A stretch of DNA of 64,000 nucleotides from Phycisphaerae bacterium (GTDB lineage: Bacteria; Planctomycetota; Phycisphaerae; Sedimentisphaerales; Anaerobacaceae), in assembly GCA_030601745.1 (NCBI GenBank), contig JAUWBI010000008.1:1-64000 (forward strand), given 5' to 3'. This document shows, piece after piece, positions 11,282-61,919 of the stretch. Below the pieces are notes generated by a model. The model saw only the letters and a program-made list of their open reading frames with translations, made no database searches and was not told the DNA's origin. Position 1 is the stretch's first letter, and each line of letters starts with the position of its first letter. The position numbers and the translations under genes are program-made.

Positions 11282-11522
11282 GGCAAGTAGTCCTTTCGAC
11301 ACGGGGTGCCGTTGGTAATGAGTTAGCAAATAACGCCCGGCGGAGCCGGGGGCTAAACATAATTGAGATTGCCGCGCATCGCTTCGCGATGCTCGCAATG
11401 ACAATTTTCAAATAGATGGCTCGAATACTGCCCGTATGATTGGCAGCTAAAATGAGAGTATTTGTTTACCGCTGAGAACGCTCCCCGTTTCCACGGGGAC
11501 AGGCGAGAGCGCAGGGAGGATA

Positions 11523-11690
11523 GACGACGGACGACAGACGACGGAGGACAGAGGACGGAGGGCAGAGGACGGAGGGCAGAGGGCGGACGACAGATGACAG
11601 AGGACGGAGGAGGGACGAGGGACGAAAGACGAGGGAGGACAGAGGACGGAGGGCAGAGGGCGGATAGTGAATATCGAATATCGAATATCG
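11523..11690. repeat. 24-unit array of period-7 degenerate repeats
   Basis: GACGACG GACGACA GACGACG GAGGACA GAGGACG GAGGGCA ... AATATCG x3, phase kept throughout. Confidence 0.95.
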
Positions 11691-11751: not shown

Positions 11752-13782
11752 ATGGTAGCTTATACAATCAGAGATTTGCAGAGAGTTTTGTGGGTTGGTG
11801 TGATAAGCATTGCGGCGCTCTGGGCTGGAGTAAGCGCCGGGGAAGAGCAGAAGCCGCCGTGGGAAGGTCAGTACAAAATCCGGGCGCACGAGAAGGAGCG
11901 CCTTACGGCGGCTGATGTGGTCGGGCCGGATGGTCTGGTATATCCGAACTGGACCCGGTGCGGTGTGCAGGGCGGGATTGGCCGCGTGAAAATCTTCGCA
12001 AGCATCGAGGACTTCGGCGGCAAAGCAAACGATAATCTGGACGATTCGGTCGCGCTCGATAAGGCGTGTCGAGCAGCAGGTAAAAATGGAGGCGGGGCCG
12101 TGGTGTTAGGCGCAGGGACGTATTATCTGGACTGGCCGGTGACGGTGCGCCATAACAACGTGGTCATTCGAGGACGAGGCAGTAACAAAACGAGATTGAT
12201 TTTCCGCTATGCGATACCGAAGAACGGCGTAGGTTTCTATACGCTGAAACCCGGCAGTCGCGTTGGTAAGAATACGCGGATAGAAATACACTGTCGGCCT
12301 GGCGGACTTATGAAAATGACGATTATGGCGGACGACGCTGTGATTCAAAGATGGCAGCGCAGTATGCACTCCGGCAATACGTTTGCCTGCGCTGCGAGGG
12401 GCCGGGATGTCATCAGCAAAGTCGGTGACGGTGAGCACACGCTCAAGGGTATTGCGGAGTATAAGGACGGCAGCAAGCTGACAGGTGAGATTAAGGTCGT
12501 GGTGGATTCATCCCGCCCCTCCGAGGGGTTGGATTCATCCCGCCCCTCCGAGGGGCTGGATTCATCCTTCATTGACAGACGCCCCGTCCCGAGCAGACAA
12601 GGTGCCATCACCTTCGAGGGACGGGGATGGACGGGGAGGAAAATCAAACTGGCGCGTGACGGCAAACGTGGTGACCTGACACTTACGCTGGAAAACGCAA
12701 AAGGACTGAGGGTGGGCGACTGCCTTTACATTGAAGGCCCGGCCACGGCTCGCTGGAAGAAACTTACGAAGAACGCCTGCCTGTGGGGTGCGTATCGCTG
12801 CTATGAGGTTATCATCAAGAAGGTCGAAGGCAATACCATTACTATTAATCAGCCGCTTCGCATTGAATTTCCGGTTATCGATGGTTCCTTTGTGCAGAAA
12901 ATCGTGCCGATACAACGCTGCGGGATTGAGGACTTATATATAGAGCAGACTGAAAATCTGTGGATAAGCAGCGTGATGTTCTATCATGCGTGGAACTGCT
13001 GGGCGCGTGGTGTTACGGTGAAGATGTGCGGTCGGTTTCCGGTGTACGGCAGTATGGCAAAGTGGTGCGAGATTCGCGATTGTATCTTCGACGACGCCTG
13101 GTTCAAGGGCGGGGGCGGGACGGCATATACGGGCTGGGACAGATGCTGGGACTGCCTCATCGAGAATGTCGAGACGTTCAAGATGCGGCATGGGCCTCTG
13201 TTTCAGTGGGGGGCCAGCGGTAACGTGATTCGCAAGAGCGTCTTTCACGAGAGCGACGCCCAATGGCACTCGGGATGGACGAACGAGAACCTGATGGAGC
13301 AGTGCGTCATCACGTCGGTAAGGGGTCACGGCGGGTATGGGTTCGGTATGTGGGCTTCGCCGCCGGAGGACAAGGCGCACGGTCCGAACGGCCCGCGCAA
13401 CGTGGTTTACAACTGTGACGTCAGCTCAGAGAAGGCGGGAGTGTGGATGGGCGGGATGAACGAAAACTGGCTGATTGTTTACAGCCGTTTTGTGGTCGAG
13501 CGTGGCCAGGGGGTGTTCGCTAAAACGGCGAGCTTCGACCACGTTATCAAGGACAATGTTTTCGTGCTCAAGGACAAGTTGTCGCCGATGGTATTTCTGG
13601 CTTCTGCGGACTGCATTGGGGTGGAGATAATCGGCAACCGTCTGTACGGGGGGAATGGAAGGATTTCCGCCGGCAGAGGTAAGCCGGGGCGGGTCGAAGG
13701 GAACCGGGCGCTGCCGCTTGGTGAGGCGCCAAAACCGAGACCTGCGGTGCCGTCGATTTACGAGTGGCAAAAGGCACGGTAA
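11752..13782 (+). CDS. Secreted right-handed beta-helix (pectate-lyase-fold) protein
   Basis: ASIEDFGGKANDNLDDSVALDKAC motif, repetitive beta-helix C-terminal half, signal peptide. Confidence 0.85.
   Translation: MVAYTIRDLQRVLWVGVISIAALWAGVSAGEEQKPPWEGQYKIRAHEKERLTAADVVGPDGLVYPNWTRCGVQGGIGRVKIFASIEDFGGKANDNLDDSVALDKACRAAGKNGGGAVVLGAGTYYLDWPVTVRHNNVVIRGRGSNKTRLIFRYAIPKNGVGFYTLKPGSRVGKNTRIEIHCRPGGLMKMTIMADDAVIQRWQRSMHSGNTFACAARGRDVISKVGDGEHTLKGIAEYKDGSKLTGEIKVVVDSSRPSEGLDSSRPSEGLDSSFIDRRPVPSRQGAITFEGRGWTGRKIKLARDGKRGDLTLTLENAKGLRVGDCLYIEGPATARWKKLTKNACLWGAYRCYEVIIKKVEGNTITINQPLRIEFPVIDGSFVQKIVPIQRCGIEDLYIEQTENLWISSVMFYHAWNCWARGVTVKMCGRFPVYGSMAKWCEIRDCIFDDAWFKGGGGTAYTGWDRCWDCLIENVETFKMRHGPLFQWGASGNVIRKSVFHESDAQWHSGWTNENLMEQCVITSVRGHGGYGFGMWASPPEDKAHGPNGPRNVVYNCDVSSEKAGVWMGGMNENWLIVYSRFVVERGQGVFAKTASFDHVIKDNVFVLKDKLSPMVFLASADCIGVEIIGNRLYGGNGRISAGRGKPGRVEGNRALPLGEAPKPRPAVPSIYEWQKAR
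12504..12567. repeat. In-frame tandem 27-bp palindromic repeat within CDS
   Basis: ggattcatcccgcccctccgagggg[tt/ct] x2 then ggattcatcc. Confidence 0.95.
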
Positions 13783-19074: not shown

Positions 19075-20546
19075 TGAATAAAGAAAGCAAGACAAAGCTA
19101 AGGCGGCACATAAATCGGCGTGAGTTTATAAAGTTAGGCGGGAGTGCATTGGCGGTCCTGGGCAGTAGTGTTTCGTGCAAGAGCGTTTCTGCTGCCAAGC
19201 AAAGCCGCAAACTAAAGCCGAAGAATATCCTTTTGATTATTACCGACCAGCAGCATATAGATACGATTGCCGCTGGAGGGTGCCGGCATGTGCGAACGCC
19301 GGCGCTTGACCGACTGAAGAGCCGTGGTGTGAGTTTTACGGAATCATACAGTACGAACCCGGTGTGCAGTCCTGCGCGAAGCTCTATTTTTACGGGTCGG
19401 ACCAGCAGTGAAACGGGAGTTCACGTAAATAATCTGCCTATACGTTCGGATATTCCCAATCTGGGACAGTGGTTTTCCCAAGAAACGAAATACGAGACGG
19501 TTTATGCAGGGAAGTGGCACATTCCAAGAAGCTTCACAAATGATATCCCTGGCTTTAAGGTTATAAATACCGGCATTGGCGGTTTCGGTTATCTTTGCGA
19601 TACGGTTACGTCGCGAGCGTGCGAGGGCTATTTGCGAAACCGTTCACAATCGAGCCCCGCCCCTCCTAAGGGCTGGTCAAGGAGGGGCTGGGCGAGACCA
19701 TTTCTAATGGTGGCTTCCTTCCTGCAGCCACACGATATCTGTGAGTGGCTGCGTTTGAATACGAAGGACCCGGTCCAGCTTCGGTACAAGGAATTGGCCG
19801 GGGAGCTTCCGGAACTGCCGGATAATTTCCAATTCGATAGGAATGAGCCGGAGATGGTAAAACGGACGCGTCAAGCCAGAGATGCGGCTCAAGGCAACTG
19901 GAGCAAACAGCAGTGGCGGTATTATTTGTGGAGCTACTATCGGCACATCGAGTTTGTTGATGCGGAGATAGGGCGTGTTTTACAGGCGCTGGAAGATTTT
20001 GGTTATGCGAAGAATACGCTGGTTTTATTGACTGCTGATCACGGTGAGGGGACGGGGCACCACCAGATGGTACGCAAGAACACTCTCTACGATGAATCTG
20101 CGAAGGTGCCGTTGATTTTCTCCTGGCCGGGACACGTTGCCGAAGACAGGACAGATACTACGCATCTGGTTTCCGGCCTGGATATAATGCCGACCTTGTG
20201 CGACTATGCCGGCATCAAATCTCCAAAGAATATGCGTGGTTGGAGCTTACGGTCAATCCTCGAAGGAACCGCGTTATCGTGGGGGCGCACCGTGGTCACC
20301 GAAGTAAGTTCCAATAGAGGAAGGATGGTTCGAACGCCGCGCTACAAGTACATCACTTACAAGGACGACCTTGTCGAACAGCTTTTTGATATGAGAGATG
20401 ACGGCGGCGAAACCAAAAATCTTGCGACAAGCTCCAAGTATGCTTCCACATTGACAGAACACCGAAGAATGCTCAGAGACTGGGAGTCTCGGCTGGATGT
20501 TGCGCCGAATGTTCCAAATGCTGAGAGCTGGGGGCGTAAAGGATGA
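19074..20546 (+). CDS. Tat-exported sulfatase (CSPAR)
   Basis: NRREFIKLGG, CSPARSSIFTGRTSSETG, GKWHIP. Confidence 0.94.
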   Translation: MNKESKTKLRRHINRREFIKLGGSALAVLGSSVSCKSVSAAKQSRKLKPKNILLIITDQQHIDTIAAGGCRHVRTPALDRLKSRGVSFTESYSTNPVCSPARSSIFTGRTSSETGVHVNNLPIRSDIPNLGQWFSQETKYETVYAGKWHIPRSFTNDIPGFKVINTGIGGFGYLCDTVTSRACEGYLRNRSQSSPAPPKGWSRRGWARPFLMVASFLQPHDICEWLRLNTKDPVQLRYKELAGELPELPDNFQFDRNEPEMVKRTRQARDAAQGNWSKQQWRYYLWSYYRHIEFVDAEIGRVLQALEDFGYAKNTLVLLTADHGEGTGHHQMVRKNTLYDESAKVPLIFSWPGHVAEDRTDTTHLVSGLDIMPTLCDYAGIKSPKNMRGWSLRSILEGTALSWGRTVVTEVSSNRGRMVRTPRYKYITYKDDLVEQLFDMRDDGGETKNLATSSKYASTLTEHRRMLRDWESRLDVAPNVPNAESWGRKG

Positions 20547-28535: not shown

Positions 28536-28705
28536 AAAAGCGGGGCCGCCGCCGTGCCGGCGACGGCTAAACACAGCCAGCGTGCGTTTTTCATATTTCA
28601 CCGGTCGGGGGTATGGTGGCCGGGTGAAGTAAAGCGCATTGAAAACGAGCGGCACTTGTGGTAAAAAGGGGGGAAAGAATAATTTTCAAATCCGGGATGG
28701 TCCCT

Positions 28706-31700
28706 ATGGCAGTTCAATTTATTCTTGGCAGAAGCGGTGCGGGCAAGACCAGCTATTGCATAAGAGCAATCGTCAGTGCGTTGCTGGAGCCGACTGACGA
28801 ACAGCGGCTGATACTGTTGGTTCCGGAACAGGCAACGTATCAGGCGGAACGCGCAATCCTTAGCGATAAAAGAATCGCCGGCTACAACAGATTGAGCGTG
28901 CTTTCGTTTGACCGACTGCAGTTTTTGCTGTCAGGGAAAAATACGGCGAGGCCGCAGCTTTCGCGCATCGGCCGGCAAATGATAGTGCACAGGATTTTGC
29001 GAGACAATAAAAGTAAATTGAAAGTCTTCGGCTCATCAGCGAACCGGCCGGGGCTGGGTCGGCAAATGGCGGAAACCATCGCTGAGCTGCACCAGTATGC
29101 AAAGACACCGGACGATATTGAGCAACTGCTGGGCGAATTGCGGAAAGATGAACATAATAGTTTAGCCGTCCTGAAATTTGCCGATATCGGCCTCGTTCTT
29201 GAAGAATATTTGAAGTTTATCGAGGGCAGGTTCATCGACCCTGATATTCAACTGAACCGTGCGTGCGGAGCGGTAGCGAAAGCAGGCTTTGTTAAAGGCG
29301 CAAAGTTATGGGTAGATGGCTTTGCCGGCTTTACAACAGCCGAGCTTGCAATGCTTGCTGAGCTGCTAAAGGTTGTCTCAGATGCACAAATTGCGCTTTG
29401 TCTGGACCCGTCAAATATTGATTTGGCAAATCCTGATGCCGAGAAGCTCGATCCGGTCGGCATATTCGGCCCGACTGAACGAACGTATATCGCCCTGATT
29501 GAACTAATAAAAAAATGTAAACTGCGACTGGCCAAGCCCGTGATCCTCGATGAGGCAGTTAGATTCTCTTCTTGTCCGCAGCTTGCTCATATCGAGCGTG
29601 ATATATTTGAGCTTGAGCCGCCGAAATCAGCGGCAGATAATATTCGCATCATATCGGCACCCAACGGGCGGGCTGAAGTCCAGTTCGTCGCAAGGCAGAT
29701 ACTTGAACTGGTCAAGGAAAAGGATTATCGATACCGTGACATTGCGGTTATCGCATCGGACATCGATAGTTATCAGCACTATATAAGGGCGTATTTTGAC
29801 GACTATGGGATACCATTTTTTATCGATAAGCGAAAACCGTTGAACCAGCATGCGGCTATCCAGCTTATTTGTTCGGCGCTGCAGGCGGTTACAGGCGGCT
29901 TTTTTAGCAGCGATATTTTTGCCTATCTAAAAGCCGACCTGGTGCCAATAGAGCGCCGGGATGTTGACGTGCTGGAAAATTACTGTCTTGCCTTCGGCAT
30001 AAGCGGCGACGACTGGCAAAGTGAGAAGAAATGGGATTTCGCAGGCGAGGACAACGGAGATTTTGACGAGCCCCGCCCCTCGGAGGGGCGGGACGAGCAG
30101 CGGATAAACGAAATCCGGCTGAAAGCCGTCGGCCCTTTGCTTGAGCTTCGGGACAGACTTTACCCGGGTGACAATCCGGCAAAAACAATCAACGCCAAGG
30201 AGTTCACGCGGATTATTTTTGATTTTATCGATGGTTTGGGTGTTCGTGAAAGAATCGGGAGCTGGGTTGAAGAAGCCGCTGAACGAAAAGATTACGCCAC
30301 CGTCGGTGAACATCTGCAGTTTTACGATAAGCTTTTAGATATATTTGACGAGCTTGTCGAGGTCTTTGCCGGCCAGGAGATGGCGTCTGAGGATTATATT
30401 GCGATTCTCGAATCCGCATTTTCGCAGTTGACGCTGGCTTTTATTCCGCCGACACTGGACCAAGTTCTTGTCGGCTCTATCGAGCGCAGCCGGCATCCCG
30501 ATTTGAAAGCGGTTTTCTTGGTAGGGGCTACGCAAAAGCAGTTTCCCGTACCGGTCAGTTTTGACAGCATATTAAGCGACGACGACCGCAGCGCTGCGGA
30601 GTCGGCGGATTTCCCACTGGCAGCAACGGCAAGCCAGATGCTTGCCGAACGCCAATACCTGGCTTACATTGCATTTACACGCCCGTCGGAATTTCTGTGT
30701 GTTACATACCCTTCGGCTGATGATAAGGGCAGTGCGGTGCCTCGCTCGCAGTACATAGACCATTTAGAATCGCTGTTTGAAAATCTCAAGGAACTATCGA
30801 TTGCAGGCGAGCAAATCGAGATTGAGAAAGTCCACGGCGAGACCGAGCTTGCTGATTTGCTCTGCAGCCGGTTAGGCAAAGATGCATCTGGTGACTTGCT
30901 TGAGAGTTCTCGTAAGCGGCTTGGTGAATTATTAAATGGAATTTGTTCGGATGAACAACCTGGAGAACTCGGCTCAAAAGTTCAATGTGCGATAAATTAT
31001 GATAATTGTGCCGAGCTTGATAAGACGATAGTTGAAAATCTCTTTAGCGGGGAGGTAAGAAGCTCTGCGACACGGCTGAGTACTTTTGCGGCGTGTCCCT
31101 ATCAGTATTTTGCCCGATATATATTGGAATTGAAGGAACGGGAAGAATTTAAGTTTGAGCCGTTGGACGTGGGCATTTTTTACCATCGTGTTCTGGATGG
31201 TTTGTTGAAGCAGCTTAGCGCAGAAACAGAAGATTTTGCGACGGTTCGGAATGAACGGCTTTTAGAGCTTTTGAGAGAACAAATATCAAAACTTGTCAGA
31301 GAGGATTCGTTTATATCAAACTTTGTCCGTCACAGACCTCATAACGCTTTTATCATTCACGTTGCCGGCGAGGTTCTTGAGGATTGTGTTTCGGCAGTTG
31401 CGCAAATGGTGCGGGCGGGGAGTTTCAGGCCGAGGGTGTCGGAAGTTTCGTTCGGGGAAGCAGGTGCAGGCCTGCGTGCCGGCCGAGGGCAACCACACAG
31501 GGTTGCCCCTACCAGCCTTGGCGAATGCGAGATTGGCCTTTCGGATGGGCGGCTGCTGTCTCTGGACGGCAAAATTGACCGGCTTGATATTGCAGAGCTC
31601 GATGGTGAAAAAATTGCGATTGTTTTCGATTATAAGCGTAAAGACAAAACCTTTAGCTGGGCAAAACTTTACTATGGCCTGGATATGCAACTGCCGATTT

Positions 31701-32221
31701 ATATGTTAGCTGTACGGAACGCATCCAATCCGCAATGCAAAGTGCAAAATGTCGCAGGGGCATTTTATATGCCGGTCGAAGTGACGCCCACAGGAGCCAC
31801 CCTCGATGAGCTATCAGAGAAAACAGAAGGTTTTGATTATAAGGCAAAAGGTGTCTTCAACGGTAAATTTGCCCGGGAGCTTGATAAAACAGCTTTGAAA
31901 GACAGTAAATTCTATAATTTTTACGTTACCAAAGACGGTGAGCCATACGGCAGTTATGGAAATAGAGGGGTGTTAAAACATGCTGATTTTGAAAAGGTCC
32001 TTAAATTTACCGAGAACAAAATAGTTCGGTTGGCTGAAGAAATACTCTCCGGCAGGATTGATGTCAGGCCATATCGTTTGAGCGGGAAATCGCCGTGTAG
32101 TTATTGCAGGTACAAATCGGTCTGCCGATTTGACTGGCAGATAAATGATTACAACTTTTTAGAATCGCTCGGCAAAACAAAGGTTCTTGGAAAGATGAGC
32201 AGAGAGGGACGAGGAAAGTAA
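28706..32221 (+). CDS. addB: ATP-dependent nuclease AddB-like subunit
   Basis: GRSGAGKTSY, CPYQYFARYIL and CSYCRYKSVCRF Cys motifs; near addA. Confidence 0.9.
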   Translation: MAVQFILGRSGAGKTSYCIRAIVSALLEPTDEQRLILLVPEQATYQAERAILSDKRIAGYNRLSVLSFDRLQFLLSGKNTARPQLSRIGRQMIVHRILRDNKSKLKVFGSSANRPGLGRQMAETIAELHQYAKTPDDIEQLLGELRKDEHNSLAVLKFADIGLVLEEYLKFIEGRFIDPDIQLNRACGAVAKAGFVKGAKLWVDGFAGFTTAELAMLAELLKVVSDAQIALCLDPSNIDLANPDAEKLDPVGIFGPTERTYIALIELIKKCKLRLAKPVILDEAVRFSSCPQLAHIERDIFELEPPKSAADNIRIISAPNGRAEVQFVARQILELVKEKDYRYRDIAVIASDIDSYQHYIRAYFDDYGIPFFIDKRKPLNQHAAIQLICSALQAVTGGFFSSDIFAYLKADLVPIERRDVDVLENYCLAFGISGDDWQSEKKWDFAGEDNGDFDEPRPSEGRDEQRINEIRLKAVGPLLELRDRLYPGDNPAKTINAKEFTRIIFDFIDGLGVRERIGSWVEEAAERKDYATVGEHLQFYDKLLDIFDELVEVFAGQEMASEDYIAILESAFSQLTLAFIPPTLDQVLVGSIERSRHPDLKAVFLVGATQKQFPVPVSFDSILSDDDRSAAESADFPLAATASQMLAERQYLAYIAFTRPSEFLCVTYPSADDKGSAVPRSQYIDHLESLFENLKELSIAGEQIEIEKVHGETELADLLCSRLGKDASGDLLESSRKRLGELLNGICSDEQPGELGSKVQCAINYDNCAELDKTIVENLFSGEVRSSATRLSTFAACPYQYFARYILELKEREEFKFEPLDVGIFYHRVLDGLLKQLSAETEDFATVRNERLLELLREQISKLVREDSFISNFVRHRPHNAFIIHVAGEVLEDCVSAVAQMVRAGSFRPRVSEVSFGEAGAGLRAGRGQPHRVAPTSLGECEIGLSDGRLLSLDGKIDRLDIAELDGEKIAIVFDYKRKDKTFSWAKLYYGLDMQLPIYMLAVRNASNPQCKVQNVAGAFYMPVEVTPTGATLDELSEKTEGFDYKAKGVFNGKFARELDKTALKDSKFYNFYVTKDGEPYGSYGNRGVLKHADFEKVLKFTENKIVRLAEEILSGRIDVRPYRLSGKSPCSYCRYKSVCRFDWQINDYNFLESLGKTKVLGKMSREGRGK

Positions 32222-32647: not shown

Positions 32648-32760
32648 ATGCAACTTAATTGTTAAAAGGCAAGGAGTAAGGAAAAAAGGCAAAAGTGGAA
32701 AGTAAAGGAGAAAGTGGATTCCTGCTTTCGCAGGAATGACAAAAAGTGAAGAGATAGTAA

Positions 32761-35700
32761 ATGGCTGAGAAGAAGATAAGATGGACTGAGCAGCAGCGGC
32801 GGGCAATTGTTGCACGCGGCAGTGACGTTTTAGTAACGGCCTCAGCGGGCACCGGCAAAACAGCGGTCCTTTCAGGCCGATGTGCCAACATCGTATCCGA
32901 CAAATCCGTATGTCCCAATGTGTGGAGCATACTGGTATTGACTTTTACCGAGATGGCAGCCGAGCAGATGCGTTCGCGAATAGCCGAGCAATTAAGAGCT
33001 GCATTTCTGGAAAACGGCGACGCCCATCTTCGCCACCAGCTTATGCTGTTGGGCGGCGCTGATATCAGTACGATACATTCGTTTTGCAAACGGCTTATCA
33101 CGGAGTATTTTTACGAACTCGGCCTTGACCCAACGTTCGGCGTAATCGACGGCGACGAAGCGAAACTATTAAAAGCAGAGGTTCTCGAAAAAACAATCGA
33201 CTGGGCCTGGCAGCAGAGCAACATACGAGCGGCTCTCGAACAGCTTTTATACCGGCGAGACCTTCGCACAAATGACGGTTTTCTTGCAAAGATAATAGAC
33301 CTCAGCGATTTTCTGGACGGCGTAGTTTCACGAGAAAACTGGTGCGAGCGTGCATCGGTGCTTGCAGAAGCGGCCAATCCATTTGCAGGTGACTTAGGCA
33401 AGAAACAAAAGGAAATTATTGCAGACAAATTGCAGCACATACTAAATCAGCTTCGGCACACCCAGGGACTCTATAAAAACAGGTGTCCCGACGGTGATTG
33501 GGCACAGAAGTGCGAGGATATTTTTATTAAACCCGTTGAGCAATGTATTGAACTTTCCAAGGCCGATGATTGGGGTAAATTTGCCGAAGAGATAAGAAAT
33601 TTTAAGAAGCCAAGGGTTAATAAGCCCAAAGAAGTGCCGAAAACAATCGCTGAACTTGTACAAAAGACGGTGAAAAAAGCAGTAGATGCTTTTGAGGGAC
33701 TCTCCGACCTTGCCATTATAAATCCAGACTACCTTGATAAAGTCAGCGGTGCTGCCGGCCTGCAGACAAAGGTACTGATTGAGCTGGTTAAAAAATTTGA
33801 CCGGTTATACAGCCGGGCCAAGCTAGCGGTCAACTGTCTGGATTTTGCCGACCTTGAACATTATGCCCTGAAGCTCTTAACTGATGAGGGTTCTTCGGAG
33901 GACAATTTGTTACCTTCGCAGACGGCTCTGGCGCTTCGCCGCAGGTACAAATACATATTCGTTGATGAATATCAGGATATTAACCCTGTTCAGCAGGCCA
34001 TACTTGATTTGCTCAGTTCTGAAGACAATGTTTTTGTTGTCGGCGATGTCAAACAAAGTATTTATGCCTGGCGGGGAGCTGAGCCGGAGATTTTTCTCGA
34101 ACGCCTCAAGCCTGCCCGCCGAGGGCGGGTTGACCAGGCCGATGCACTTAACGGATTACGGGTTGACCTGAATGCGAATTTCCGCTCGGCTAAAGGAATC
34201 CTCGATTTTGTCAACAAGATATTCGGCCGGATAATGACAGCATCTTTTGCAAAGATTGATTACGACGAGTCGGCCCGGTTGAAGCCGGCACTTGTAAGAG
34301 AATTTAAGGGTGAGGCGGCAAGTGACAAAAAGAGCGTTGTCGAGTTTCACATACTTGACGAACAAAACAGAGACCAGGATTTGCAAAACCAACAGATAAG
34401 CGAAATTGCCGACGACGAGAATCTAAACCCCGTTAGAAATTCCACGACTGTTTCTAACGGGGTAAATATTATCAGCTCCCGGCAGCGTCAGGCGGCAATG
34501 ATTGCCCAACGTATCAGGCAAATGGTCGGGGCAGACACGGGTAAGGCGGAATTTCAGATATATGATAAGCAGGGAGATAAATTCAGGGATGTTGAGTATC
34601 GCGACATTGTGATACTGATGCGGTCGCTGGCCAAAAAGGCCAATGACTATGTCGAAGTGCTGCGATTAGCGGGCGTACCTGTGAGCTGTCAAGCCACTGC
34701 TGGATATTTTGAGGCGACTGAAATCAGCGACTGTCTGTGCCTGCTAAAAGTCCTGGACAATCCTCAGCGCGATATCGAATTAGCTGCCGTATTGCGAAGC
34801 CCGTTTTTTAATATTAGTGACACTGAATTAGTGAAGATAAAAATCCACAGTGAAACGGATGAGCATAACAAAAACTTCTACGACTGCGTGGTCGAATGCT
34901 GTAACAGTGGGCGGGATGTAAAACTGGCCGGCAAGCTTAAAGAGATACTCGCTGCGATTGAGCAGTGGCGAACACTTGCCCGACGAGGCAATCTGGCGGA
35001 TTTGATATGGCAGGTCTATCGCCGGACCGGCTTTCTGTCATTCGTTTCGGCCCTGCCGAACGGGCAGGCACGCAGAGCTAATCTTCTCAAGCTGCACGAT
35101 AGGGCGATCCAGTTTGAGGGTTTTGCCAGCAGTGCGGGCATCCCTTCCCTGACGCGGTTCGTTGAATTTATTGAGAAGCTTCAGGAAGCAGGCGAAGATT
35201 GGGCTCCTGCTGAGCCGGAATCTGCAGCGGGTAATGCCGTTCGGATTCTAAGCGTGCATAAAAGCAAGGGACTCGAATTTCCGGTCGTTTTTTTAGCTGA
35301 GCTGGACAGTAAATTCAACAAGAGAGACATTCAGCGAGACTTTCTTGCCGATGCCGGCGATACACTGGGGCTGCAAATTATCGACCGTAAGTCAAACAGC
35401 AAGCTGCGTTCGCTTGCACACGAGGTCATCGCAGAGCGGAAGCTGTCAACAGCATTGGCGGAAGAGATGCGTATCCTTTACGTTGCAACGACGCGGGCGA
35501 GGGACCGGCTTATTTTAAGCGCCTGTGAAAAGCCAGGCAATTGCCGGACTATTATTTGCAACGGCTTCTTCTTCGGCGACGAGCCGATTCCGAGCTGGCA
35601 GCTTCGCTGGTGCCAGAGTCCTCTGGAGTGGGTCCTCTACGGACTTTCCGACCAAAAGAATTTGCACAACGCTTTTGAGACCGGCCTGGCAGCAAGAGGC

Positions 35701-36672
35701 GATGACGATGATTTATTTCGTATAAAACTTTACGAGCAGAGAGAACTTGAATGGCTCTCCAGATATATTCTTAAACTAAAACGTGGCAAATCACGCCGAT
35801 TTGCTTCGACGGTTTGTCATTCTGAGCGTAGCGCCAGCGGAGCGAAGAATCTCTCTAAACAAACAGAGTCAAAGCTGCTTTCGCAGGTAAAAAAGTCTCT
35901 GGCGTGGCGGTATGGGTTCGGCGATGCGCCGCTGCTGCCTGCCAAGACTTCGGTAACGGCAATAACACATCGCAATGATGAATACCTAAAAATCGATTAT
36001 TCCAGGGCGCTGGAACGTCAGCCAAGGATTGTTTGTGCGGCGGAACATGTGTCGGCTGAGCCGGTCGAAGGCCGACTAATCGGCACAGCTACACCCCGCC
36101 CCAGTGTATTGGGGCGGGGTACACACCTTGTAATTTCCCAGCTTGATTGGGCCAGGCCGGTAAACAAGGAAGCGATTGAAAAAGTTATAGACAAACTTTT
36201 GGCCGAAGGCGCTATAAGCGAGCTGGTTGCCGAGCATATCGACACAGAGTCGATAATAACGTTTTTTGAAAGTGAACTGGGCCGGACTGCAATCGATGCC
36301 AAAAACACTGTTTGGCGTGAATGGCCGTTCACTTTCGCTCTACCGGCGTGGCACGGTCATCCTGACCGTGCTTTCTGGGACAAGATGTCCCAGCCACAGA
36401 GACGAGGGACCCCTGCTTGCGCAGGGGCAGGCTCCAGGGATGAACTAATCGTTGTTCAGGGCATAATTGATATGTTAGTTCGGACGCCTGATGGCTTGCT
36501 GGTTATAGATTTCAAGACCGACAGAATAACCGCTGAAGAAGTCTCCGAGCGTGCCGAACTTTATCGCCGGCAGTTGGAGCTTTACAGCAAGGCGGCTGAG
36601 TCAATCCTGAAGGTCAAACTGCTCGGCAAATGGCTGTATTTTCTGACGCCGGGCTGCGCGACTGAGATTTGA
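32761..36672 (+). CDS. addA: ATP-dependent helicase/nuclease AddA
   Basis: ASAGTGKTAVL, VDEYQDINPVQQ, VLSVHKSKGLEFPVVF, VVQGIIDML...VIDFKTD. Confidence 0.96.
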   Translation: MAEKKIRWTEQQRRAIVARGSDVLVTASAGTGKTAVLSGRCANIVSDKSVCPNVWSILVLTFTEMAAEQMRSRIAEQLRAAFLENGDAHLRHQLMLLGGADISTIHSFCKRLITEYFYELGLDPTFGVIDGDEAKLLKAEVLEKTIDWAWQQSNIRAALEQLLYRRDLRTNDGFLAKIIDLSDFLDGVVSRENWCERASVLAEAANPFAGDLGKKQKEIIADKLQHILNQLRHTQGLYKNRCPDGDWAQKCEDIFIKPVEQCIELSKADDWGKFAEEIRNFKKPRVNKPKEVPKTIAELVQKTVKKAVDAFEGLSDLAIINPDYLDKVSGAAGLQTKVLIELVKKFDRLYSRAKLAVNCLDFADLEHYALKLLTDEGSSEDNLLPSQTALALRRRYKYIFVDEYQDINPVQQAILDLLSSEDNVFVVGDVKQSIYAWRGAEPEIFLERLKPARRGRVDQADALNGLRVDLNANFRSAKGILDFVNKIFGRIMTASFAKIDYDESARLKPALVREFKGEAASDKKSVVEFHILDEQNRDQDLQNQQISEIADDENLNPVRNSTTVSNGVNIISSRQRQAAMIAQRIRQMVGADTGKAEFQIYDKQGDKFRDVEYRDIVILMRSLAKKANDYVEVLRLAGVPVSCQATAGYFEATEISDCLCLLKVLDNPQRDIELAAVLRSPFFNISDTELVKIKIHSETDEHNKNFYDCVVECCNSGRDVKLAGKLKEILAAIEQWRTLARRGNLADLIWQVYRRTGFLSFVSALPNGQARRANLLKLHDRAIQFEGFASSAGIPSLTRFVEFIEKLQEAGEDWAPAEPESAAGNAVRILSVHKSKGLEFPVVFLAELDSKFNKRDIQRDFLADAGDTLGLQIIDRKSNSKLRSLAHEVIAERKLSTALAEEMRILYVATTRARDRLILSACEKPGNCRTIICNGFFFGDEPIPSWQLRWCQSPLEWVLYGLSDQKNLHNAFETGLAARGDDDDLFRIKLYEQRELEWLSRYILKLKRGKSRRFASTVCHSERSASGAKNLSKQTESKLLSQVKKSLAWRYGFGDAPLLPAKTSVTAITHRNDEYLKIDYSRALERQPRIVCAAEHVSAEPVEGRLIGTATPRPSVLGRGTHLVISQLDWARPVNKEAIEKVIDKLLAEGAISELVAEHIDTESIITFFESELGRTAIDAKNTVWREWPFTFALPAWHGHPDRAFWDKMSQPQRRGTPACAGAGSRDELIVVQGIIDMLVRTPDGLLVIDFKTDRITAEEVSERAELYRRQLELYSKAAESILKVKLLGKWLYFLTPGCATEI

Positions 36673-40487: not shown

Positions 40488-40541
40488 CCGCTGCGCTCCG
40501 CTCAGGATGACAATGTGCCGCTGCGCTCCGCTCAGGATGAC
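40488..40541. repeat. Two copies of ccgctgcgctccgctcaggatgac
   Basis: 40488-40511 and 40518-40541. Confidence 0.9.
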
Positions 40542-41477: not shown

Positions 41478-41511
41478 AACTGCTTCCTTATGAACGCGAA
41501 ATTTCTTCTGA

Positions 41512-41546
41512 CCCCGTTAGAAGTTGCCGTTTTACTTCTAACGGGG
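41512..41546. repeat. Palindrome CCCCGTTAGAAGT...ACTTCTAACGGGG
   Basis: 13-bp stem; related to 34428-34462 and 61527-61587. Confidence 0.9.
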
Positions 41547-41895
41547 TTGGCGTAGTCCTGATGGTATCAGGATTTACAAAAATTTCAAGTGGATTCCCGC
41601 TTTCGCGGGAATGACAAAAGGGGGCGGGCGCGGCAGAAAGAGGCGGGCGCGGCAGATGGAGCTTTTTCAAATTCTTTGCCGGGAGGTAAAAGAATTTGCA
41701 TTTTTTTGTTTTTTTCTGCAAGTTTTTTTTGACAAACCAAACAATTCGAATTAGATTTCAATTACCGGATTTGCTCAGGCACAGGTGTTAGCCTGGTCTC
41801 GCCTTGTAAAAGTTTTTAACAAGGATGTTTTTTAATGGTCGGTTGCTGTTTGCATAGAATACGGATATGATAGGCCTTTCGCAAAGGAGGGTGGT

Positions 41896-54576: not shown

Positions 54577-54769
54577 ATTATCACAGGCGTTCGTAAGCGC
54601 TGAACGCTGTGCGTATTTCGGCTCGGTTGCGGCCGGCTAATTGGCTAACCGCGTTAGAAGTAAACAGCCGCTGTTTGTCCCGCTGATAGTGGGGGCTTCT
54701 AACGGGGCTTACCGAGACCGGGCGGATAGCAGTGCCTCAAATGCGCAGAATGCTTCCCTATCGAGGTCA

Positions 54770-59003: not shown

Positions 59004-61379
59004 CTACTTAACTGGTTCAGCAGCAGTTTTTTCTGGCACGCCGGCAGCACGTAATGCAATTGCCATATCGCGAACGAGCTTGCTTGAGTCATATCTGGCT
59101 GTCCAGTCCAGGACCTTGGCGAAATTGCTGTTCTGGTTTTTGGCCAGCAGATAAATAGCCATCATACGGGCCGGCCAGTGAGTATCGTTCAAATTTTTGG
59201 CCGCACCACTTATTAGCTCGTAATCCAGCGGCAAAGAAAGCATCCCGGCCATAGTATCGACCTTAACGACCCAATCATCGTCGTCAAGGTTATGTACCAA
59301 TGCGGATTTCAACATATCCGGCATCCAGTCGGCATACATAAATTTATAAAGCGGCTCCCGATTTGCCATCGCATGCTGCTCCATTAAAAGGCCGATGAAA
59401 AGCTGTGCGGTTTTGGTTTTTTGGCCCTGCTGTCCCGCCGACAGTGAATTAAACCGGTTTCGCAGATACTTGCCGGTAAGTTCGACGCCCGGGCGCTTCA
59501 CGAGCACCCTGGCCGGCTTTATCCAGGTGAGCCTGTTGGCTATCCTGCCCTCGTCCCGCCCCTCGGAGAGGCGGGGCTCGTCGGTGATTACAGGGTCGAG
59601 ATAAGCCGTAAATTCTATATCCAAAGATGCCTGCGGATAGGTAAGCAGTATCTGCTTAAGTTCGCCCGTAAGCAGACGCAGCGGAATAAAAAGACTCCGG
59701 CCCGGCTCGACAGGTAAGGCAGGCCTAATCTTGACAGATATCAGGTTCGGTATCTTTTTAGTAAGGTCGCCGCTAATACCGGCATCGATTCTTATGTTGC
59801 CGGCAAACAAGCCGTCGTCACTAATTATGAGGGGTTCAGAGGAATTATTTGTTATTGCAATAGTGCCGCCGAATTCGCTGCCGTAGGAAAACTTACTGCC
59901 GCGAACATTTAGCCGGACTGAAATTATTTTCTCCGGGCTAACGAATGTCGGAACGACTGCTTCTCCGAAGCTGTCTTTTAGCGCAGTCAGGACGATATCG
60001 GGGTCAATCGGCGGGATATACTCCGCGCCCTGTTGGACCAGAATCTCTTTGGCCCGTTCCGCCTCCAGCGCCCCGGGGTCTCTGGCGATTGCAGACTTCA
60101 GGGTCTCAATTGCCGAATCTCTTTGTCCCTGCGCCAGTTGAACCTGGGCTAACGTTAAATCGGCGATTTGATTATGCTCATAATTGTCGATAAGTGTCCT
60201 GGCCCATTCGGTCTGCTGATTCATCACGAGTGAATAAGCCAGAATAGCCGCTGCGGTCGGCGAGTTGGGCTCAATTGAATAAGCCTTATTGGCCCATTGA
60301 AGCGCTTTGTCAGCATCCGGCGAGGCAAAACAATAAAACCAGGCCAGTTGTTCGTAGTTCGTAGTTCGTAGTTCATAATCCACCAGCTCAAGTGCTTTGT
60401 CTTCAGCGGCCTTTAGTATCCCAGCTGCCTGCTGTTGGTTGCCGATTTTCGCCGCTGCTTTGCCGGCAATAGCTTCCAGAAGTATGTCAAATCGCCCGCT
60501 CTGGCGTAACTTCTCGGCAATTTTCAGACATCTGTGCTGATTTCGTTGAGTATTATAGCTGCTAATCGACCAGGGCAGATATATCGAGGCCGGCAGAGGT
60601 TGCAACGGATGCAGAAACTTGAACAAATCAGCACAGTATTCGTATGCGTCCGCGGCTGTCTCGTAAAGCTGCAGCCGTTCGGCGTATTGTGCAAAAGTCA
60701 CGGCGGTTTCGATGTCCAGTGGATTTTCGCCTAATGTTAATCTTAGATGCTCAAGATACATTGCAGGCCCAAGCTGGTCGCCCGCAAGTTCAGCCAGCTT
60801 TGCAAACGCCGGCTTATTATATTTATTTTTGTTATACGCAAACCAGAAAGCATTTACAGCATTCGGGTCGTCGGTCTTTTCAACCATCAGCAGGCCGAGC
60901 AAGGTAGCCAATTCAGAATCCAGAGCAGCGCTTTTACCGCCCAGATTCTCTAACATATCTTCAAGGAGCTTCTCTCGCTGCTCACGGGAGTCCAGCTGCT
61001 CAAGCAGGTAATAAACGGCCTCTCGAACCGGCTCAAGGTCGGCTTTATCATTTACGTAGTTCTCAAGCAAGTGATGGACGAGCTGCGAATAGTCTCGCTC
61101 TGGATGTTGACAGGCAAGCCTAAGCATTACGGGGTAAACGTAGTTGGCTCTGCTGTCCAGATTCATCGCGGCGGTTAAGAATATAATCGCCTGTTCGGCC
61201 TGTGCACTGTTGATATTGGGGGAGTTGGCCAGCTCGTATGCTACTTCATAAAATCTTTCGCCGACGGACGGTGAAAACAACCGACCTGAATCTAATCCTG
61301 ATACATCGGGCTGGGCCCAGGCCGACAAAGAGCAGCAGAAAAGCATCGAAAAAACTAAAAAAGACCTACTCTTTAGCAT
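59004..61379 (-). CDS. Secreted TPR/HEAT-like repeat protein
   Basis: Signal peptide; TPR-like helical repeats; 791 aa. Confidence 0.8.
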   Translation of the reverse strand: MLKSRSFLVFSMLFCCSLSAWAQPDVSGLDSGRLFSPSVGERFYEVAYELANSPNINSAQAEQAIIFLTAAMNLDSRANYVYPVMLRLACQHPERDYSQLVHHLLENYVNDKADLEPVREAVYYLLEQLDSREQREKLLEDMLENLGGKSAALDSELATLLGLLMVEKTDDPNAVNAFWFAYNKNKYNKPAFAKLAELAGDQLGPAMYLEHLRLTLGENPLDIETAVTFAQYAERLQLYETAADAYEYCADLFKFLHPLQPLPASIYLPWSISSYNTQRNQHRCLKIAEKLRQSGRFDILLEAIAGKAAAKIGNQQQAAGILKAAEDKALELVDYELRTTNYEQLAWFYCFASPDADKALQWANKAYSIEPNSPTAAAILAYSLVMNQQTEWARTLIDNYEHNQIADLTLAQVQLAQGQRDSAIETLKSAIARDPGALEAERAKEILVQQGAEYIPPIDPDIVLTALKDSFGEAVVPTFVSPEKIISVRLNVRGSKFSYGSEFGGTIAITNNSSEPLIISDDGLFAGNIRIDAGISGDLTKKIPNLISVKIRPALPVEPGRSLFIPLRLLTGELKQILLTYPQASLDIEFTAYLDPVITDEPRLSEGRDEGRIANRLTWIKPARVLVKRPGVELTGKYLRNRFNSLSAGQQGQKTKTAQLFIGLLMEQHAMANREPLYKFMYADWMPDMLKSALVHNLDDDDWVVKVDTMAGMLSLPLDYELISGAAKNLNDTHWPARMMAIYLLAKNQNSNFAKVLDWTARYDSSKLVRDMAIALRAAGVPEKTAAEPVK

Positions 61380-61390
61380 TCATAATCTCC

Positions 61391-61425
61391 GGTAAGCCCC
61401 ACCCCTCCGAGGGGCGGGGTAAGCC
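61391..61425. repeat. GC palindrome flanked by 8-bp direct repeats GGTAAGCC
   Basis: GGTAAGCC-CCACCCCTCCGAGGGGCGG-GGTAAGCC. Confidence 0.95.
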
Positions 61426-61919
61426 CTCGAAAAGCAGTAAGAGTAAAACGGCCATCTTGGCCGTCTTTTCAGGGGCTGGAAGCCCATGTTACTCAATATT
61501 TCGGGCAATTGGCCGTCTTTCTTTATCCCGTTAGAAATAAAAATGCTTACAATTGAAAAACCGTGTATTATACTAAATTCTAACGGGATTTACGTATAAT
61601 GATAGCGGAAGTTGGGTATTTTCTGGGATTGACCACCTTTTTTAGCAATCAGCAGTATCTAAACGAATGTCTTTTTCATATATGCGGCTTATTACAATGC
61701 TTGCCCCGCACCAAACCTGTCCTGAGTGGCCTGTGGTGAGCATGGCCGAACCAAATCGAAGGATAGGCGCTTGCCGCCGTGTCCCGCACGAATTGAGTGC
61801 TAACTCACGTCTAATTAGTGCGGGGTAAATTAGTGCGGGGTCATTGCGAGGCCACAGAATATGGCCGCGGCAATCTCTATTCCATCCTCAATCAATATTC
61901 AATAGTCAATAGAAAATAG

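Follow-up and report, generated by a model that had tools for sequence, protein, structure and literature searches.

A 26-bp palindrome with a 4-bp target duplication in addA, probably one of a lineage-restricted class of very short mobile hairpins in Phycisphaerae

The window, meaning here the whole 64,000-nucleotide stretch of DNA that was analyzed, comprises positions 1 to 64,000 of contig JAUWBI010000008.1 from a Phycisphaerae bacterium (GenBank assembly GCA_030601745.1). The assembly is 3.45 Mb in 123 contigs and 87% complete, and the named relatives closest to it are MAGs of Phycisphaerae, Sedimentisphaerales, and other Planctomycetota. At the center of this study is addA (32761-36672, forward strand), encoding helicase-nuclease subunit A, which matches TIGR02785 at 796.7 bits, above the equivalog cutoff of 707.65 bits, and the AddA structure 3u44 in the PDB with an E value of 1.2e-146. 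The partner subunit gene, addB (28658-32221, forward strand), matches TIGR02773 at 720.5 bits, below the equivalog cutoff of 903.7. An initial annotation, made from the sequence alone, had named AddA as the host of a short palindrome, and the TIGR02785 score supports that assignment.

The palindrome lies at 36090-36123 and has the form TACA + CCCCGCCCCAGTGTATTGGGGCGGGG + TACA, i.e., 26 bp of palindromic sequence between 4-bp direct repeats (elements are given without strand throughout). The sequence and coordinates originally reported for it are correct: an independent search recovered a perfect 11-bp stem (36093-36103 and 36110-36120) with a 6-nt loop, and the TACA repeats occupy 36090-36093 and 36120-36123. 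The left arm, CCCCGCCCC (36094-36102, forward strand), faces the right arm, GGGGCGGGG (36111-36119, forward strand), and the predicted folding energy, calculated with RNA parameters, is −25.3 kcal/mol. The added DNA, one TACA plus the palindrome, amounts to 30 nt, or 10 codons (TPRPSVLGRG). In a de novo scan for palindromes with a terminal stem of ≥7 bp and perfect 4-bp direct repeats immediately flanking them, 464 kb of sequence gave 29 places, compared to 5.7 in shuffled sequence; the addA palindrome was among the strongest of these, with a terminal stem of 10 bp, and is not a chance occurrence.

Relatives of AddA lack this segment entirely. Among 29 orthologues fetched, 27 span the site (40 to 67% identity over the C-terminal domain), and in all 27 the 10 residues are missing and the motif reads G-x-A-x-H without a gap, which is the outcome that the initial annotation had anticipated from an orthologue alignment. 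The DNA at the empty site reads GGCACGGCTACACATCTT in L055 and GGAACGGCTACACATCTT in L058, and GCTACACAT was read there in several orthologues. No addA gene was found in the contigs of genomes G001 and G002, and the comparison at this site is thus one with more distant relatives only. The feature in addA is a precise insertion with target duplication.

The insertion falls within a conserved motif of the nuclease domain, which now reads GTA-TPRPSVLGRG-TH (36082-36126, forward strand) where orthologues have G-x-A-x-H. It had been proposed that the palindrome splits a GTxxH-like motif; the location at the motif is right, but rather than being split, the motif is displaced, and a G-x-x-T-H sequence is recreated by the insert. 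GRG, the last residues of the insert, now precede TH, such that GTATH becomes GRGTH: the G at position −4 and the T at position −1 from the invariant His are restored by the insert sequence, and the invariant Ala is replaced by Gly. All remaining invariant residues of the nuclease domain are retained, and the open reading frame (ORF) continues across 1303 codons. In the AlphaFold model, the helix bearing the motif (residues 67 to 80 of the domain) begins within the insert and includes H75, the original GTA is displaced to a low-confidence linker, and the catalytic core is modeled with a pLDDT of >90; the best solved fold match of the modeled domain is AddA itself (4ceh/4cei, E = 5e-14). Since GxxTH is rebuilt before the invariant His, the insert is probably tolerated and AddA probably still works, as judged from sequence and model. 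An insertion at the invariant G-x-A-x-H, in a gene with several further inserts, might instead have abolished nuclease activity and left a decaying or regulatory allele. With GxxTH restored, every invariant residue but the Ala retained, the ORF open for its 1303 codons, and the catalytic core kept in the model, we regard such a loss as unlikely; it bears on the effect on AddA only.

Several other short inserts were observed in the two genes. In addA, a further extra segment, CHSERSASGAKNLSK (35815-35859), appears to be a widespread translated repeat of another kind, and a similar CHSERSAGG insert lies elsewhere in the AddA of relative L073. The segment AFWDKMSQPQRRGTPACAGAG (36370-36432) is missing in most relatives; in L054, the same position holds a longer insert related to it, and the loop has thus received insertions repeatedly. 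In addB, EAGAGLRAGRGQPHRVAPTSLGE (31457-31525) looks like another in-frame, repeat-derived insert. The AddA proteins of L046, L047, L049, L050, L051, L054, and L071 have different short inserts of their own elsewhere, many of them palindromic or repeat-derived, and the AddA family is a good recorder of short insertions.

The initial annotation had made its reading depend on the palindrome being repeated elsewhere in the genome. The exact sequence is unique: the 34-mer at the addA site has no second copy genome-wide with up to 3 mismatches, and its loop, AGTGTATT, occurs nowhere else in the genome. The arms and architecture, on the other hand, recur as a family, here called family A, most often as the 23-bp palindrome CCCCGCCCC-TCSGA-GGGGCGGGG, with the same left arm as the addA copy. 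This 23-mer gave 135 forward matches genome-wide (≤3 mismatches) versus 0 for a reversed control, and perfect 9+9 arm pairs (CCCCGCCCC...GGGGCGGGG) were found at 13 places versus 0 in the reversed control. In a catalogue drawn from ∼0.9 Mb of the genome, largely around search hits and with mechanical ORF calls, perfect 4-bp direct repeats flank 68 of 86 distinct copies, and 3 of 4 bases are repeated at a further 12; a perfect 4-bp repeat is expected by chance in ∼1 of 256 cases. Loop variants of 25, 26, 35, 38, 44, and 50 bp extend the family to 23 to 50 bp overall. Nested copies are found among the longest variants: at position 16196 of L087, a 27-bp unit flanked by a CAAG duplication of its own sits within another copy. 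Arm pair 9 shows compensatory changes. Within the window, family A also includes a tandem pair with a 27-bp period and TTCA in common (12507-12564) and a 38-bp loop variant that lies in a sulfatase gene and has duplicated CGAG (19651-19696). The 26-bp addA copy belongs with the family A loop variants, as shown by its arms, its ends, and its duplicated target; as its loop is unique, membership rests on those three features.

A second family, B, has ends CCCCGTTAGAA/TTCTAACGGGG, measures 23 to 110 bp, and likewise carries 4-bp direct repeats. One copy lies in addA itself at 34424-34466 (TAAA + CCCCGTTAGAAATTCCACGACTGTTTCTAACGGGG + TAAA; 35 bp, giving a 39-nt insert), where it encodes LNPVRNSTTVSNG, and a similar insert occurs at the matching position in relative L047. 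Others in the window are TTTA + 63 bp + TTTA at 61522-61592, which is common to G002; a 59-bp copy at 54645-54711 with 3 of 4 repeat bases conserved; and a 35-bp copy outside long ORFs at 41508-41550, the flanks of which no longer match.

Across both families, perfect 4-bp repeats fit YNNR in 111 of 111 elements. The repeats vary between sites, and since it is the middle bases of YNNR that vary, they are not part of the element. Bases outside the repeat are symmetrically biased (G at −1 in 45%, C at +1 in 58%), which defines the target as G-YNNR-C. A palindromic target of this kind together with a fixed 4-bp duplication is the expected trace of staggered cleavage at a symmetric site.

Whole-element presence and absence could be seen directly between species of one genus through exact empty and occupied sites. 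Genome G002, from the same genus, can be aligned over two of the window's family A copies. At 59550-59580 (CTCG + TCCCGCCCCTCGGAGAGGCGGGG + CTCG), it has exactly 27 bp fewer and a single CTCG, and the site is occupied in G001; at 61393-61423 (TAAG + CCCCACCCCTCCGAGGGGCGGGG + TAAG), it again has exactly 27 bp fewer and a single TAAG. In addB, the family A element CGAG + CCCCGCCCCTCGGAGGGGCGGGA + CGAG (30067-30097) forms a 27-nt insert. The corresponding 9 residues are missing from nearly all of ∼25 relatives aligned, and where relatives' DNA was read at the site, it showed a single GACGAG, GACGAA, or GATGAA. The original proposal of a mini-palindrome insertion with target duplication and a preserved frame is therefore upheld by the 27 empty orthologues, the congener empty sites, and the YNNR repeats.

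Could such palindromes instead have been made in place, by template switching or slippage during replication or repair, with the direct repeats as a by-product? The unique loop in addA would suit such an origin, as would the compensatory changes at arm pair 9, which hairpin template switching can give. The same arms, however, occur at >100 unrelated sites, where the duplication strictly follows YNNR, and congeners differ by the exact presence or absence of 27 bp, leaving a local error highly improbable.

For most copies, the insert plus its duplication is a multiple of three (27, 30, 39, 63, or 66 bp). Because 23 + 4 is 27 and 26 + 4 is 30, family A insertions almost always add a whole number of codons. 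Family B copies vary in length, yet element plus duplication comes to a multiple of three in 19 of the 22 located in ORFs (P = 4e-7), in 12 of the 18 located elsewhere (P = 0.004), and in 36 of 45 in other genomes by our own count of those listed (P = 2e-10); some of the last are shared by descent, and the P values overstate the significance. Most copies lie within ORFs, and the ORFs are kept open. Toward genes as such, family A is roughly neutral, with 73 of 96 copies (76%) in ORFs of ≥150 amino acids compared to 84% of random positions. With family A hitting ORFs at close to the random rate, the filter is likely to be selection against frame-breaking insertions. Two further preferences were considered. 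The hydrophilic PRPSEGR frame was used more often than the other two (27/14/8, P = 0.003 versus uniform), but once the codon phase of the duplicated tetramers was taken into account the value rose to P = 0.056, and we do not claim this preference. A preference for repair genes was also set aside, as the hosts are varied and include sulfatases, T2SSF, CdhD, YidC, Omp85, a sigma-54 activator, and a rhamnosidase.

Across genomes, the exact family A 23-mer was found in 6 of 148 searched, and a close pattern was absent from all 389 further genomes sampled across the phylum. Family B was present in 24 of the 148 genomes (that of the present bacterium included), with no more than 29 copies in any one other genome. 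No element was found in viral contigs or phages. Taken together, we interpret the addA palindrome as a member of a lineage-restricted class of mobile hairpins that are ultra-short, noncoding, and nonautonomous and that comprise two families, in Phycisphaerae (probably Sedimentisphaerales), and assign this reading a probability of roughly 0.88. A trans-acting enzyme would cut the target with a 4-nt stagger, the same enzyme would join the element at the staggered cut, and gap filling would duplicate YNNR. Given that an element and its 4-bp duplication together span a multiple of three and that no frame of the family A consensus contains a stop codon, an insertion into a gene would add residues, typically 9 to 13 and ∼30 at most for long family B copies, and may often be tolerated.

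Which machinery mobilizes the elements is a separate matter. They may be classical MITEs, that is, internally deleted insertion sequences with CCCCG-type ends that are moved by a DDE transposase with a 4-bp stagger; this account concerns machinery only and is compatible with insertion and target duplication. Terminal inverted repeats, a target duplication of fixed length, and a symmetric target preference all speak for it, and family B, at 59 to 110 bp, overlaps MITE sizes. Less easily accommodated is the dominant family, which is just 23 bp. Moreover, of the two transposase families searched (PF01609 and PF01797), PF01609 has no match in the 87%-complete assembly, and 880 kb of sequence yielded no convincing autonomous parent of 0.5 to 5 kb bounded by CCCCG ends and 4-bp repeats. 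The few long CCCCG-ended pairs observed consist of two distinct short elements or of unrelated sequence. We consider the MITE route a plausible candidate at somewhat less than even odds.

PF01797 (Y1) has two matches in the genome, one of which is above the cutoff. These matches, along with the high copy number of short hairpins, would accord with a REP/REPIN system in which a Y1 (RAYT) transposase acts on single-stranded hairpins. Against such a system stand the lack of a constant tetranucleotide tag, the constant 4-bp duplication of varied targets, and the location of approximately three-quarters of copies inside ORFs. In addition, neither Y1 gene is flanked by family A or B palindromes, and one has different TTAG-CCCCCAGG hairpins of its own. 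A REP/REPIN origin thus appears quite improbable. Around the Y1 (RAYT-like) gene at 1799-2733 of L303 lie three copies of another hairpin, TTAG-CCCCCAGGTTTATCCTGGGGG, which probably represent a separate REP family of this genome.

By our reckoning, a 23-bp duplex offers very little length for a conventional two-ended transposition complex, which leaves open a route by way of a hairpin substrate. An enzyme might take up a folded hairpin of single-stranded (or RNA-copied) DNA and join it at a 4-nt staggered cut in G-YNNR-C, a scheme that we offer tentatively. If it were correct, the element would move without a conventional two-ended complex, would rank among the smallest mobile DNAs known, and would have a length such that insertions into genes add whole codons.

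Palindromes within genes have been known since Rickettsia. In our reading of the literature, their movement has been hard to establish, because few clean empty sites or target duplications are available. Here, the signature is unambiguous (a 4-bp YNNR duplication, a symmetric target, congener empty sites, and nested copies), and the chemistry of insertion is thus directly testable. The elements also show that one lineage lengthens its proteins by at least 9 residues at near-random places, including in a helicase-nuclease that processes DNA ends. No report of such a class in Planctomycetota was found in the literature searched, which covers few subscription journals.

The closest resemblance suggested beforehand was to Rickettsia palindromic elements (RPEs), and it holds for in-frame palindromes in genes that are absent from orthologues but fails on length and host. 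Like the RPEs of Rickettsia and Wolbachia, the present elements are repeated palindromes that lie in frame within genes, are absent from orthologues outside the lineage, and fall into several families. RPEs measure 100 to 150 bp (PMC3767692), and elements of this type are known from Rickettsia and Wolbachia (PMC3767692, PMC10969869). Compared with them by description, the elements described here are mainly 23 bp (23 to 50 bp in family A, 23 to 110 bp in family B), reside in another phylum, with a host from Phycisphaerae rather than Rickettsiales, and display a strict 4-bp YNNR duplication together with presence/absence differences between congeners.

With bacterial MITEs, the elements share terminal inverted repeats, a fixed target duplication (4 bp here), a lack of coding capacity, and high copy number. 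MITEs span 70 to 300 bp with ends of 15 to 30 bp (PMC3733652), whereas family A, at 23 bp with arms of 9 to 11 bp, lies below this range and family B only partly within it; no parent transposon was found in the 880 kb examined. REPs and REPINs with RAYT resemble them in being high-copy hairpins of 20 to 40 bp. Those repeats have a constant tag, are mostly extragenic, and are associated with RAYT (PMC3733652, PMC3116915), although REPs also occur inside recBCD and other repair genes (PMC3733652). In contrast, our elements have no GTAG/CGTC tag, and their flanking tetramers are varied and duplicated; approximately three-quarters lie in ORFs of varied host genes, with no adjoining Y1 gene. Among organellar sequences, the GC clusters of yeast mitochondria are GC-rich short mobile hairpins that sometimes lie in genes. 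Repetitive hairpin-forming elements of mitochondria are also short mobile hairpins (PMC2800124); both are likened to the present elements by description. The small dispersed repeats of cyanobacteria are, as described in papers that cite them (PMC3116915, PMC4390886), very small mobile repeats as well.

Other repeats were noted in passing. An AT-rich palindrome, GATATAAGTATATGCATATATACTTATGG, is repeated at L088 (18-589), L075 (3-130), and L083 (13990-14013); these copies cluster at contig starts and possibly mark sites of assembly breaks. Within the window, a degenerate array of 14-bp units (GACGGAGGACAGAG-like) occupies 11484-11678, a short palindromic repeat resembling GTGGATTCCTGCTTTCGCAGGAATGACA is present in three copies (1535-1567, 32712-32744, and 41587-41619), and CCGCTGCGCTCCGCTCAGGATGAC forms a tandem pair, 30 bp apart, at 40488-40541.
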